A DNA stretch of 64,000 bases. It comes from an uncultured Peptostreptococcaceae bacterium. GTDB taxonomy: Bacteria; Bacillota; Clostridia; Peptostreptococcales; Anaerovoracaceae. The notes under the pieces are model-generated. The model saw only the letters and a list, made by a program, of their open reading frames with translations. It was not told where the DNA came from and ran no database searches. Below, one piece after another: positions 1-17,331 of the stretch; the first letter of the stretch is position 1; the number at the start of each line of letters is the position of its first letter. The stretch is taken from the NCBI GenBank assembly GCA_905235115.1, contig CAJOKT010000010.1, forward strand, positions 1 to 64,000, written 5' to 3'. The position numbers were made by a program, and so were the translations under genes.

Positions 1-419
1 AAAATCGGCGCTCAGGCAGGGCAGAAAGCCAATTTCGCCCTGCCTGTGAGAAAAAATCGGCGCTCAGGCAGGGCAGAAAGCCAATTCCGCCCTGCCTGTG
101 AGAAAAAATCGGCGTTCAGGCAGGGCAGAGAGCCAATTCCGCCCTGCCTGTGAGAAAAAATCGGCGTTCAGGCAGGGCAGAAAGCCAATTCCGCCCTGCC
201 TGTGAGAAAAAATCGGCGCTCAGGCAGGGCAGAAAGCCAATTCCGCCCTGCCTGTAGAAAAAAATCAGCGCTCAGGCAGGGTCAAAACCCAATTCCGCCC
301 TGCCTGTAGAAAAAATCGTCGCTCAGGCAGGGCAGAAAGCCAATTCCGCCCTGCCTGTAGAAAAAAATCGGCGTCCAGGCAGGGCCAAACTCCAGTCCTG
401 CCCTGTCTGCAGAAAAAAA
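1..419. repeat. Eight tandem 52-bp hairpin repeats
   Basis: Eight head-to-tail copies with a period of 52 bp (one interval is 51). The stem left arms start at 13, 65, 117, 169, 221, 273, 324 and 376. Each copy carries a 10-bp inverted repeat, CAGGCAGGGC and GCCCTGCCTG, around a loop of about 14 nt, and an A6-A7 run lies between copies. An inner GAA/TTC pair can extend most stems. Copies 6 and 8 have diverged in the loop, and the arm change in copy 8 (GCCCTGTCTG) still allows a G-U pair. The array stops just before the rpsO promoter and may continue left of the window. There are no unique spacers, so it is not CRISPR. Function unknown. Confidence 0.95.
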
Positions 420-423
420 TCCA

Positions 424-452
424 TTGACATTAATCTTTTTAGGTGATAGTAT
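424..452 (+). promoter_or_regulatory. Sigma-A promoter of rpsO
   Basis: TTGACA at 424-429, a 17-bp spacer, then TAGTAT at 447-452. The -35 is perfect and the spacing ideal; the -10 matches 4 of 6. It sits directly after the hairpin repeat array and about 85 bp before rpsO. Confidence 0.75.
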
Positions 453-458
453 AAATCG

Positions 459-538
459 ATAATTTGTGCCTCAGGCTTAGTTGAGCGACACTCCGGCGCA
501 CGGCCCAGTCTAAGGTCTATGAAAGAAAAGGAGATAAA
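459..538 (+). promoter_or_regulatory. Possible structured rpsO leader with RBS
   Basis: The untranslated leader of about 80 nt has a possible long-range stem, CTTAG at 476-480 with CTAAG at 510-514, enclosing a GC-rich segment. The ribosome site AAAGGAG is at 527-533. S15 is known to autoregulate through leader structures in several bacteria, but these leaders differ between phyla and I cannot match this one to a described class. Confidence 0.35.
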
Positions 539-805
539 ATGATTACAAAAGAAAAGAAAGAAGAGATCATCAAAGAGTATCAGCTTAAGGAAGGCGACAC
601 CGGTTCCCCGGAAGTTCAGGTAGCCATCCTTACATACAGGATCAATGATCTCAACGAGCATCTCAAAGTCAACACGAAAGACCACCACTCAAGAAGAGGT
701 CTTTTGAAGATGGTAGGACAGAGAAGAAACATGCTTGCTTATCTTAAAGAGAAGGATCTTGAGAGGTACAGAAACCTCATTACTCGTTTAGGATTAAGGA
801 AGTAA
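539..805 (+). CDS. rpsO: 30S ribosomal protein S15
   Basis: Small-subunit protein of 88 aa that binds 16S rRNA in the central domain and helps form the platform. The length is typical. The conserved core is visible: GDTGSPEVQ near residues 20-28, the [15 protein letters not shown] segment around 48-62, and the C-terminal Y..LI..LGLR ending. The start ATG has a good AAAGGAG site 5 nt upstream. It is followed by a hairpin and then pnp, the conserved rpsO-pnp pairing. Confidence 0.99.
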
Positions 806-818
806 AAGTCCGAGACTT

Positions 819-850
819 AGGCGGGTAAATACCCGCCTTAAAATTTTGTT
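819..850 (+). terminator. Hairpin between rpsO and pnp
   Basis: AGGCGGGT (819-826), loop AAAT, ACCCGCCT (831-838), then TAAAATTTTGTT. The U-tract is interrupted, so it may be a partial terminator or an RNase entry structure that lets some transcription read into pnp. Confidence 0.6.
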
Positions 851-875
851 AAGAGCATTACAGGAGGTAGTTGCA

Positions 876-2993
876 ATGCCAAGATTCACAGATTACAAAA
901 CTTATAACTATCCTCTCGGAGGACGTCTGCTTCAGATCGAGATAGGGAAGGTTGCTGAGCAGGCCAACGGACAGGCATGGGTCAGATACGGAGATACAGT
1001 GGTATCCGTCACAGTCTGTTGCTCCAAGGAGCCCAGGGCGGGGATGGATTTCTTCCCCTTAAGCTGCGACTTCGAGGAGAAGATGTACTCCGTAGGCAAG
1101 ATCCCCGGAGGATTCATCAAAAGAGAAGGACGTCCCTCGGAACACGCCATCCTCACGTCAAGACTCATCGACAGACCTTTGAGACCGCTGTTCCCCAAGG
1201 GTTTCTATAACGACGTCGTGGTGGTAGCCACCTGTTTGTCAGCAGATAATGACTGCTCGCCGGAGATCACCGCCATGATCGGTTCATCCATCGCCATCGC
1301 CATTTCCGATATCCCCTGGGACGGTCCCACGGCGGCGGTAAAGGTGGGAAGAGTTGACGGTAAGTTCATCATCAACCCCACCCTGGAGCAGAGAGAAGTA
1401 TCCGACATTGATATGACAGTCGCCGGCACCAAGGAAGCCATCATGATGGTGGAAGCAGGAGCCAGGGAAGTTCCCGAGATGGACATGCTGGACGCCATCA
1501 TGTTCGCCCATGAGGAGATCAAGAAGATCGTTGAATTCATCGATCAGATCGTTGCCGAAGTGGGCAAGCCCAAGATGGAAGTGGAACTTTACAAGCCGGC
1601 TGAGGAGATCGATCAGGCAGTGAGAGAGTACGCGGTTCCCAGGATGAAGGAAGCCGTCATGACCTTCGACAAGCTTGAGAGACTTGAGAATATGGACAAG
1701 GTGGAGCAGGAGACCAAGGAGTATTTTGCTGAGACCTATCCTGAAGGGGATAAGGACATAGACGCTGTCCTCTACAACATCACGAAGGAATGTGTCAGAA
1801 ACATGATCCTGGATGAAGGCATCCGTCCCGATTCCAGAAAACTTGATGAGATCAGACCTGTATTCTGCGAGACAGGACTCCTGCCAAGAGTACATGGAAC
1901 AGGTCTTTTCAAGAGAGGACAGACACAGGTACTTTCTTCCTGCACACTGGCTCCGGCCTCTGAATCCCAGACCATCGACGGGATCACAGAGCAGACAAAG
2001 AAGAGATATATACATCACTATAACTTCCCGGGATACTGCACAGGCGAAGCCAAGGCTCCCCGTTCACCCGGAAGAAGAGAGATCGGCCACGGCGCGCTGG
2101 CGGAGAGAGCGCTTCTTCCCGTCATCCCCGATGAAGAGGAATTCCCCTATGCCATCAGAGTGGTCTCTGACGTGCTCTCATCCAACGGTTCCTCCTCAAT
2201 GGCCTCCACATGCGGCTCCTGCCTTGCGCTCATGGACGCGGGCGTTCCCATCAAGAGACCGGTGGCAGGCATCGCCATGGGGCTCATCGAGCGCGTCAGG
2301 GAGGACGGCACATCTCAGTTCGCTATCCTGTCCGACATCCAGGGAATGGAAGACTTCCTGGGCGACATGGACTTCAAGGTAACAGGAACAGAAGTGGGCG
2401 TTACCGCGATCCAGATGGACATCAAGGTCCACGGACTTGACAGGGAGATCCTTGAAAAGGCTCTCAAACAGGCCAAGGTCGGCAGGATGTTCATCATGGA
2501 CAAGATGCTTGAAGAGATCCCCGAACCCAGAAAGGAAATGTCACCATGGGCCCCCAGAGCACTCTCCACGAGAGTACCTGTGGACAAGATCAGGATAGTC
2601 ATCGGCAAGGGCGGAGAGACCATCAACGGGCTTACCGAGAAGTACGGCGTCAAGATCGATATCTCCGACGACGGACTGGTATCCGTGTACGGCACGGATG
2701 CTGCCATGACGGAGGCCTGCGTGGACGAGATCAAGACCCTTACCAAGGACGTGGTGGTGGGAGAGATCTACGAGGGTACTGTCACACGTATCCTTTCCAC
2801 AGCCAAGGGATCCGTGGGAGCATTCATAGAGATCCTTCCCGGCAAGGAAGGCCTGCTCCACATCTCCAGGATGGACAAGACCAGAGTCGCCAAGGTAGAA
2901 GACGTGATGAACGTTGGCGACAGAGTAACTGTCAAGGTAATAGAGATCGATTCTCAGAACAGGATCAACCTGTCCAGAAAAGAGCTCCTCTAA
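876..2993 (+). CDS. pnp: Polyribonucleotide nucleotidyltransferase (PNPase)
   Basis: Phosphorolytic 3'-5' exoribonuclease that degrades mRNA to nucleoside diphosphates; the family acts as a trimer. The 705 aa hold two RNase PH-type domains (about 1-220 and 310-540, with a helical segment between), a KH domain with GKGG around residue 570, and a C-terminal S1 domain (about 620-700, with the GAFIEILPGKEGLLHIS stretch). I chose ATG 876 because AGGAGG lies at 861-866 and the protein then begins MPRFTDYK. The frame also opens at a TTG at 846, but that lies inside the upstream hairpin tail and has no ribosome site. Confidence 0.98.
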   Translation: MPRFTDYKTYNYPLGGRLLQIEIGKVAEQANGQAWVRYGDTVVSVTVCCSKEPRAGMDFFPLSCDFEEKMYSVGKIPGGFIKREGRPSEHAILTSRLIDRPLRPLFPKGFYNDVVVVATCLSADNDCSPEITAMIGSSIAIAISDIPWDGPTAAVKVGRVDGKFIINPTLEQREVSDIDMTVAGTKEAIMMVEAGAREVPEMDMLDAIMFAHEEIKKIVEFIDQIVAEVGKPKMEVELYKPAEEIDQAVREYAVPRMKEAVMTFDKLERLENMDKVEQETKEYFAETYPEGDKDIDAVLYNITKECVRNMILDEGIRPDSRKLDEIRPVFCETGLLPRVHGTGLFKRGQTQVLSSCTLAPASESQTIDGITEQTKKRYIHHYNFPGYCTGEAKAPRSPGRREIGHGALAERALLPVIPDEEEFPYAIRVVSDVLSSNGSSSMASTCGSCLALMDAGVPIKRPVAGIAMGLIERVREDGTSQFAILSDIQGMEDFLGDMDFKVTGTEVGVTAIQMDIKVHGLDREILEKALKQAKVGRMFIMDKMLEEIPEPRKEMSPWAPRALSTRVPVDKIRIVIGKGGETINGLTEKYGVKIDISDDGLVSVYGTDAAMTEACVDEIKTLTKDVVVGEIYEGTVTRILSTAKGSVGAFIEILPGKEGLLHISRMDKTRVAKVEDVMNVGDRVTVKVIEIDSQNRINLSRKELL

Positions 2994-14197: not shown

Positions 14198-16087
14198 ATG
14201 TCAAAAGTTATAGGAATAGACCTTGGAACCACCAACAGTTGTGTAGCCATTCTTGAAGGCGGCGAGCCTGTGGTAATCACCAACCCTGAAGGATCGAGGA
14301 CCACACCTTCCGTAGTGGGATTCAAGAAAGACGGTGAGAGACTGGTAGGAGAGACAGCCAAGAGACAGGCTGTTACCAATCCGGACAGGACCGTATCTTC
14401 CATCAAGAGACACATGGGAGAGAATTACAAAGTTACCATCGACGGAAAGGACTACACACCTCAGGACATCAGCGCCATGATCCTTACAAAGCTCAAGAAC
14501 GACGCTGAAGCCTACCTGGGCGAGAAGGTCACAGAGGCCGTCATCACAGTTCCCGCATATTTCTCAGATGCTCAGAAGCAGGCCACAAAGGATGCCGGCC
14601 GTATTGCAGGTCTGGATGTAAAGAGGATCATCAACGAACCTACAGCAGCATCCCTTGCTTACGGACTGGACAAGGAGATGGGCTCCCACAAGATCATGGT
14701 CTACGACCTTGGCGGAGGCACATTCGATGTATCCATCCTTGAACTGGGCGACGGTGTATTCGAAGTACTGGCCACCAACGGTGACACGCACCTGGGCGGA
14801 GATGACTTCGACGACGTGCTGGTAAACTGGCTGGCTGATGATTTTGCAAGAGAGCACGGTGTTGACCTCCGTCAGGACAAGATGGCAGCCCAGAGACTTA
14901 AGGATGCAGCGGAGAAGGCCAAGAAGGAACTCTCAAGCTCCCAGACGGCCAACATCAATCTGCCCTTCATCTCGGTATCACAGGACGGACCGCTCCATCT
15001 GAACGTGGACCTTACAAGACCCAAGTTCGATCAGCTCACAGAGCACCTGGTACAGAGGACTGTAGAGCCCATGAAGAAGGCCATGGCAGACGCCAAGGTC
15101 ACCACGGCTGATATTGACAAGGTCATCCTGGTAGGTGGTTCTACCCGTATCCCCGCTGTTCAGGCCATCGTACAGAAGGTCACAGGCAAAGAGCCTTTTA
15201 AGGGCATCAACCCCGATGAATGCGTAGCAGTAGGAGCTGCCATCCAGGCAGGAGTACTTACAGGTGAAGTACACGATATTCTGCTTCTGGACGTAACACC
15301 GCTTTCACTCTCCATCGAGACTCTGGGCGGAGTTGCCACCAAGCTCATCGAGAGGAATACCACCATCCCCACAAAGAAGTCACAGATCTTCTCCACCGCA
15401 GCCGACAACCAGACTGCAGTAGACATCCACGTAATGCAGGGTGAGAGACCCATGGCGGCCGGCAACACCACACTCGGAAGATTCCAGCTTACAGGTATCG
15501 CACCGGCTCCCCGCGGCATCCCCCAGATCGAGGTCACATTCGATATCGATGCCAACGGCATCGTGAACGTTTCCGCAAAAGACATGGGCACCGGCAAGGA
15601 GCAGAGAATAACGATAACATCCTCTACCAACCTGTCCGAGGAAGAGATCCAGAGGAAGGTCAAGGAAGCCGAGCAGTATGCTCAGGAGGACAAGCAGAGA
15701 GCTGAGGAAGTTGAACTCAGAAACAAGGCGGAGGCTCTGATCTACGATACAGAGAGATCACTGAAGGATCTGGAAGGCAAGCTTACAGACTCCGAGAAGC
15801 AGGAGATCACAGACGCAAAGGATCAGCTCAGCGCAGTGCTCAACAACGGTACAGCAGAGCAGATCAAGCAGAAGACGGAAGCTCTCACAGAGAAGTTCCA
15901 TATCATCTCCACCAGACTCTACGAGCAGGCTGCACAGCAGAATCAGCAGGCTCAGCAGAATCAGTACCAGCAGTATCAGGCAGGTCCTGACATGGGAGCT
16001 CAGAACATGGGCGGCCAGGATCAGGGGACTCAGGAAGCACCCAATGATGACAACGTAGTGGATGCTGACTACACGGTAGTCGACTGA
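14198..16087 (+). CDS. dnaK: Chaperone DnaK (Hsp70)
   Basis: ATP-dependent folding chaperone of 629 aa. The N-terminal [12 protein letters not shown] phosphate loop, the [12 protein letters not shown] motif near 170 and the [11 protein letters not shown] motif near 312 define the ATPase domain. The substrate domain and lid follow, ending in a Gln/Asn/Gly-rich tail with the Hsp70-type DADYTVVD ending. Site AGGAGG at about 14186. A hairpin terminator after it probably lowers dnaJ expression relative to dnaK. Confidence 0.99.
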
Positions 16088-16164: not shown

Positions 16165-17331
16165 ATGGCAGAAAAGCGTGATTATTACGAAGTCCTGGGA
16201 TTGAAAAAGGGCGCGTCCGATGACGATATCAAGAAGGCTTACAGAAAGCTGGCCATGAAGTATCATCCGGACAAGAATCCCGGGGACAAGACCGCGGAGG
16301 AGAATTTCAAGGAGGTCAATGAGGCCTACTCAGTGCTTTCCGATGCGGACAAAAAATCCAAATATGACAGATTCGGCTTCGCAGGCGTAGATCCCAATGC
16401 AGGATTCGGCGGCGGCGGTCAGGGCTTCGGAGGCTTCGGAGGCTTCGGAGGCTTCGGTCAGGGCTTCGGCGGTTTCGAAGATATCTTCGACATGTTCGGA
16501 GGCGGCTTCGGCGGTCAGAGCCAGTCCCGCCGTGCCAATCAGCCAAGAAAGGGCAGGGACCTTCAGAAGGGCATATCCATAACCTTCGAGGAGGCAGCTT
16601 TCGGCTGCAAGAAGACCATAACCCTGACCAAGAATGTGACATGCTCCACCTGCAAGGGGGAGGGAGCAAAGCCGGGCACATCCAGGAGCACCTGTCCCAA
16701 GTGCGGCGGCTCCGGACAGGTAGCCACTACCCAGAGAACGCCCTTCGGGCAGTTCCAGACGGTGAACACCTGTGATCAGTGCGGAGGATCCGGCAAGATC
16801 ATCGATACACCATGCACGGACTGCGGAGGGAGCGGAAGAGTCAGAAAGAAGGTCTCCATCACTGTGGACATCCCTGCAGGAGTGGACAATGAGTCTGTCA
16901 TCCCCATCAGGGGACAGGGTGAGCCCGGATATAACGGAGGCTCCGCGGGAGATCTCTATCTGGTGCTCAGTGTGAAGCCTCACGCCATGTTCAGAAGAAA
17001 CGGTGCGGATCTCTACCTTGATATACCCATAACCTTCGACCAGGCGGCTCTGGGAGCTGAGATAACGGTTCCCACCCTGGACGGAAAGGTAAAGTACAAG
17101 ATACCCGCAGGTACCCAGCCCGGAACCAAGTTCAGGCTCAAGAACAAGGGCATCAAGTATCTCAAGAGGGAGGACAAGGGCGACCTCTATGTCACAGTCA
17201 ATCTGGAGGTACCCACCAAGCTCAGCGGCAAGCAGAAGAAAGCCATCGAGACCATGGCAGAGGAAGTGGGAGAAGGCTGCTATCAGTCACGCTCCAGTTT
17301 TTTGAGCAAGATCAAAGAGTGGTTTGAATAA
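16165..17331 (+). CDS. dnaJ: Co-chaperone DnaJ (Hsp40)
   Basis: Stimulates DnaK ATPase activity. It is 388 aa: a J domain with the YHPDK tripeptide near 33-37, a Gly/Phe-rich linker (about 75-118) with repeated GFGG units, four zinc-binding CxxCxG repeats (CSTCKG, CPKCGG, CDQCGG, CTDCGG; about 155-225), and the C-terminal substrate domains. Complete type I DnaJ. It starts 78 bp after dnaK behind a hairpin and ahead of mnmA. Confidence 0.98.

Follow-up and report, generated by a model that had tools for sequence, protein, structure and literature searches.

The palindromic repeat array that precedes rpsO at the start of the window (the whole 64,000-nucleotide stretch of DNA that was analysed) is, with somewhat better than an even chance, one of the loci of an intergenic tandem-repeat family that is dispersed, species-specific and similar to STAR and BIME elements, and in which the stem arms and the repeat period are kept. 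On this explanation, nothing ties the array to rpsO in particular, and its position just upstream of the promoter is an accident of insertion. The repeat looks like a fast-evolving DNA repeat family rather than a switch for a ribosomal-protein gene.

An earlier reading made from the sequence alone (the sequence-only reading) had described eight 52-bp hairpin units abutting the rpsO promoter, and this layout was confirmed. Positions 1-419 are filled by eight 52-bp units, which follow each other at a spacing of 52 bp with one exception of 51 bp. TRF reported a period of 52 with 7.4 copies and 93% matches at positions 1-385, which becomes eight units once the degenerate last unit is counted. In each unit, the stem CAGGCAGGGC/GCCCTGCCTG encloses a loop of 14 nt, and an A-tract and TC.GC come next; the stem is nearly invariant across the array in the window. 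The features of this region are:

1..419, + strand, right-hand part of the 52-bp palindromic tandem array, eight units in the window
13..46, no strand, unit 1 stem-loop, CAGGCAGGGC-AGAAAGCCAATTTC-GCCCTGCCTG
65..98, no strand, unit 2 stem-loop
117..150, no strand, unit 3 stem-loop
169..202, no strand, unit 4 stem-loop
221..254, no strand, unit 5 stem-loop
273..306, no strand, unit 6 stem-loop with the other loop type, CAGGCAGGGT-CAAAACCCAATTCC-GCCCTGCCTG, innermost pair T-G
324..357, no strand, unit 7 stem-loop, 51 bp after unit 6
376..409, no strand, unit 8, degenerate edge unit with right arm GCCCTGTCTG
413..419, + strand, A-tract before the rpsO -35 box, probably native since an A-tract is found at the same place in relatives that lack the array
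424..452, + strand, rpsO sigma-70-type promoter TTGACA-17-TAGTAT, outside the repeat
539..805, + strand, rpsO (S15), downstream neighbour, outside the repeat

The source assembly (G000) is a draft of 65 contigs and 1.97 Mb with 94% completeness, and position 1 of the window is the first base of contig C10, so that the array is cut by the contig edge. The end of contig C40, where lysA is followed by a terminator-like hairpin and then by three complete units, overlaps exactly with the first 99 bases of the window; two of these units make up the overlap. A 99-bp overlap is of the kind left by assemblers between adjoining contigs, and the array therefore probably lies between lysA and rpsO and contains at least nine units, which extends it leftward, as the sequence-only reading had proposed to do, and places lysA on its far side. 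The orientation of the array, with the A-tract 3' of the stem, is the direction of both lysA and rpsO. A coding role of the arrays was rejected: the unit length of 52 bp is not divisible by three, and the open frames that cross the arrays are short, contain interruptions and were taken as incidental. Two short tandem repeats further into the window (15935-15979 and 16401-16477, of 18 and 39 bp) are possibly coding, since their periods are divisible by three.

The stem of the array was found in about 76 units at seven loci of G000, beside unrelated genes. The pattern CAGGCAGGG-N4..24-CCCTGCCTG gave 66 matches in the 1.97-Mb genome versus none for the reversed control, which means that the repeat is present far beyond chance. 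When split contigs are joined, the loci are C40/C10, C20/C34, C20 (7.6 kb), C3, C43, C14 and C46. The neighbouring genes are lysA/rpsO, acyltransferase/rpsR-ssb-rpsF and HD protein/transporter at three loci, and a metQ-like gene, cls/amidohydrolase, 3-keto-5-aminohexanoate cleavage enzyme/whiA and nuclease-like/ECF protein at the other four; some of these names come from the reading of translations only, while lysA (diaminopimelate decarboxylase) was named by a search match. The right-hand gene is directed into the array at four of the seven loci (the left gene at C43 is unassigned), both flanking genes are codirectional with the array at three, and none of the seven loci is a divergent promoter region. 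Three loci have a left flank in common, and four a right flank.

The data showed that this family is restricted to one genome of those compared. The stem pattern was found in none of 60 relatives, and a covariance model of the unit, a search that the sequence-only reading had put forward as a check, detected arrays in G000 only among 297 family genomes, the other matches being weak and numbering one or two per genome. The stem pattern together with the A-tract had no match in 84,980 genomes, a set which may omit the genome itself or near ones. There was no phage or plasmid match to the stem, and three matches in viral contigs consisted of one palindrome each. At two of the G000 sites, the lysA-rpsO gap and the HD-protein/transporter gap, the array is absent in comparable relatives, and the divergence of the relatives' intergenic regions is too great for insertion-site duplications to be read. 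The relatives identified by pnp are, where named, uncultured Clostridia or Bacillota MAGs, several of them of ruminant origin. A terminator-like palindrome (GAGAGGGTGTCTCTCAAGG...) occurs in similar form at C29:34710, C38:20665, C12:58922, C17:37027, C3:80134, C39:148 and C19:26284 of G000, and looks like a dispersed terminator repeat.

The comparison of the seven array consensuses showed no variation at the 18 sites that make up the outer nine bases of the two stem arms, versus variation at 24 of 34 sites elsewhere (Fisher p=5e-7), which agrees with the earlier observation that the stem is kept while the loops change. When arrays are compared with each other, 1.8% of sites differ in the arms and 41% in the loops, and the innermost stem pair (10/25) is variable. 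Arm mismatches number 4 in 62 interior units versus 16 in 14 edge units. Loop types are common within an array, and are mostly near copies of each other. No stem pair is altered on both sides, and hence the conservation is shown for the arm sequence and says nothing for the fold beyond that. The suggestion of selection on the fold as such was thus not upheld; the arm GCCCTGTCTG of copy 8, from which it had partly been drawn, would indeed allow a G-U pair, but as a single change it provides no evidence for such selection. Recent homogenisation, which had been offered as the other explanation, is insufficient alone, because the arms are constant between arrays with diverged loops.

Genomes of the same genus have their own dispersed hairpin arrays, with other stems and a period of mostly 50-54 bp, the exceptions being single cases of 47 and 56. 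These are the TGGGTCA (53 bp, seven loci read) and TTGCGTC (54 bp) arrays of G003, the arrays with AGTAGGA arms of G004 and G005 (mostly 50-53 bp), and the array with TTGGGTC arms of G001 (54 bp). G000 itself contains a second family with arms TTGGGCC/GGCCCAA and a period of 53-55, at two loci, C2:56476-56946 (L213) and C25:26801-27360 (L215). One of these adjoins an IS200-like transposase (Y1_Tnp) remnant and a run of tRNA genes. The loops of the G003 TGGGTCA family share 39% between loci; adjacent spacings in G003 are exactly 53 bp in 28 of 31 cases, and the 53-bp spacing is kept in 14 of the 17 pairs with loop identity below 60%. Samples of other genera of the family, about 0.58 Mb in all, and 0.31 Mb of pnp neighbourhoods contained no hairpin array of period 50-54; the samples were mostly contig starts, possibly repeat-enriched inside and outside the genus alike, and the genus genomes were draft MAGs read in part. 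The array that lies behind parB in G003 is absent behind parB in G000. The EF-Tu comparison between these two genomes matched only fragments or paralogues.

The retention of the arms and of the period probably reflects recognition at the level of the DNA, and a protein-binding array is the mechanism that we favour, although the analysis identified neither a binding protein nor a mobilising enzyme. Successive arms point in opposite directions and follow each other about 22-32 bp apart, and the period as a whole is near 52-54 bp. One turn of B-DNA takes 10.4-10.5 bp, and the period corresponds to about five helical turns, a match that does not prove an exact helical phase given the variation over 50-54 bp, with 47 and 56 as extremes. 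Inside each array, slipped-strand or unequal recombination would change the copy number; new loci would arise by rare dispersal of units, sometimes together with flanks, and the arms and phase would be kept by a candidate binder recognising the sequence of double-stranded, or perhaps extruded, DNA. In BIME arrays, the DNA is recognised by sequence. The near-constant period could also be partly inherited via tandem duplication. A broader proposal, which we advance tentatively and regard as unlikely, is that the arrays form a class of helically phased dyads found across the genus, serving as platforms about five turns apart for a putative chromosome-architecture or topology protein whose changing sequence preference would set the arms in each species, and even in each family within one genome. 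For short dispersed repeats of the STAR or BOX type, which were discovered decades ago, no function has been agreed upon. In the present case, one genus offers several families in which the arm sequence differs and the period is nearly common, so that what is kept (arms, spacing) can be separated from what is free (loops, spacers, location), and this separation makes protein binding, RNA structure and neutral repeat directly testable against each other.

Among known kinds of repeats, the best match in design is STAR of Staphylococcus. STAR elements, whose function is unknown, occupy intergenic, species-specific loci. Their short motif, T(G/A/T)TGTTG(G/T)GGCCC(C/A), is conserved between loci, and their spacers of 40-44 bp are distinct at each locus, giving a period of about 54-58. 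An S. aureus genome contains 62-90 of these motifs; a "start signature" marks one side, and the last spacer is distinct (PMC3532100). Similarly, the arrays described here are found at several intergenic loci with locations differing between species, their motif is conserved between loci while the spacers are locus-specific, and they have a 52-bp period, about 76 units, a left flank common to three loci and degenerate edge units. They differ in having two inverted 9-bp arms per unit and another motif, longer arrays (up to 17 units), fewer loci (seven), and other arms in sister species. The STAR motif is absent from the unit sequences read directly, and the array is therefore not a STAR element.

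The resemblance to BOX of Streptococcus pneumoniae, which has a left flank, a variable number of tandem central modules and a right flank (PMC3049150), is in the modular layout only. Here the flanks are found at some loci only and the sequence is unrelated; no terminal inverted repeats of the kind that belong to boxA/boxC flanks were seen by eye at the flanks (left at three loci, right at four). CRISPR arrays likewise alternate evenly spaced conserved segments with variable ones, but the conserved parts here are two separate inverted 9-mers, and the loops are near copies within an array. No cas gene was recognised among the neighbours read at the seven loci. A CRISPR-like array is present in G003 (L189:4239-6719, about 26-37 units of 66 bp, repeat GTTTGATCATCCTATGAAATTACACTACTCTCAAAC), and is unlike the hairpin arrays. 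By sequence, the array is neither BOX nor REP, and these comparisons are in accord with the sequence-only reading, in which it was not CRISPR and was unlike BOX/REP elements.

The arrays could instead be transcribed by read-through from the upstream gene and act as RNA hairpins at 3' ends, contributing to stability or serving as a roadblock or decoy, an explanation that we find unlikely. Each unit is predicted to fold well (-16 to -23 kcal/mol, z -3.9 to -6.4), and the array orientation is the direction of transcription at all three codirectional G000 loci. On the other hand, the stem has no compensatory changes, a terminator-like hairpin is located before several arrays, and the near-constant total period is unexpected for RNA hairpins, since loops and spacers could vary independently. 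The transcribed structured RNA that had been suggested earlier is also not supported by any terminator-like site within window positions 1-900, or by an Rfam family at the gathering threshold on the arrays.

A neutral satellite, which spread once and was then homogenised by slippage and gene conversion in the absence of selection, would explain the greater degeneracy of units at the edges than of those in the interior, the loop types held in common within arrays, and the break of the assembly at the array. We consider it quite unlikely, because the whole unit should then be homogenised, yet the arms are constant between arrays whose loops differ at about 41% of sites, and because the 53-bp spacing in G003 is mostly kept between adjacent units with dissimilar loops.

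BIME/REP elements are palindromic, extragenic, dispersed, arrayed and located mostly behind genes (PMC3733652), and at four of the seven loci here the right-hand gene is also directed into the array. The palindromic, dispersed and extragenic character of the repeat, and the Y1_Tnp remnant at one locus of the second G000 family, would be consistent with a REP/BIME-type element mobilised by a Y1 (RAYT or IS200-like) transposase. This origin is improbable, however, as the units are here strict direct tandem repeats of near-constant length, and the REP tag GTAG/CGTC is not conserved at the hairpin foot, where the 3' side reads GTAG, GTGA, GTGG or GCAG. Moreover, no transposase was seen beside any of the seven arrays, and no intact RAYT gene was found in the 94% complete genome, where its absence is not certain, but only two short Y1_Tnp remnants, the better of them IS200-like by our own reading.

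A cis-regulator or roadblock of the rpsO-pnp operon, the latter already proposed in the sequence-only reading, could be suspected since no more than a few bases separate the end of the array from the -35 box, but is very improbable, because the six other same-stem arrays lie at unrelated loci beside unrelated genes, and because equivalent rpsO promoters with a preceding A-tract are found in G003, G004 and G005, all without an array, so that the last unit merely abuts the promoter. The lysA gene is located immediately before rpsO in G003 and G004 as well. The lysA-rpsO gap of G003 (L047, about 1080-1400) contains a stretch resembling the C-terminus of riboflavin kinase (ribF), an apparent gene remnant, whose putative identity comes from a reading of the translation.

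The longest of the arrays, on C3, begins 12 bp after the stop codon of a gene for a 283-aa nuclease-like protein (L011:2744-3595). This protein has no Pfam or NCBIfam match and no solved relative, while its last third resembles the end of the PADLOC candidate PDC-S68. Its relatives are found in stretches of G004, G005 and G006, and because no palindromic array was noticed beside them, a dedicated neighbour gene was rejected. In G003, an Rfam DUF3800-XI RNA at gathering score (L218:104-153) is located 1.3 kb before an array, with an enoyl-CoA hydratase gene between them.
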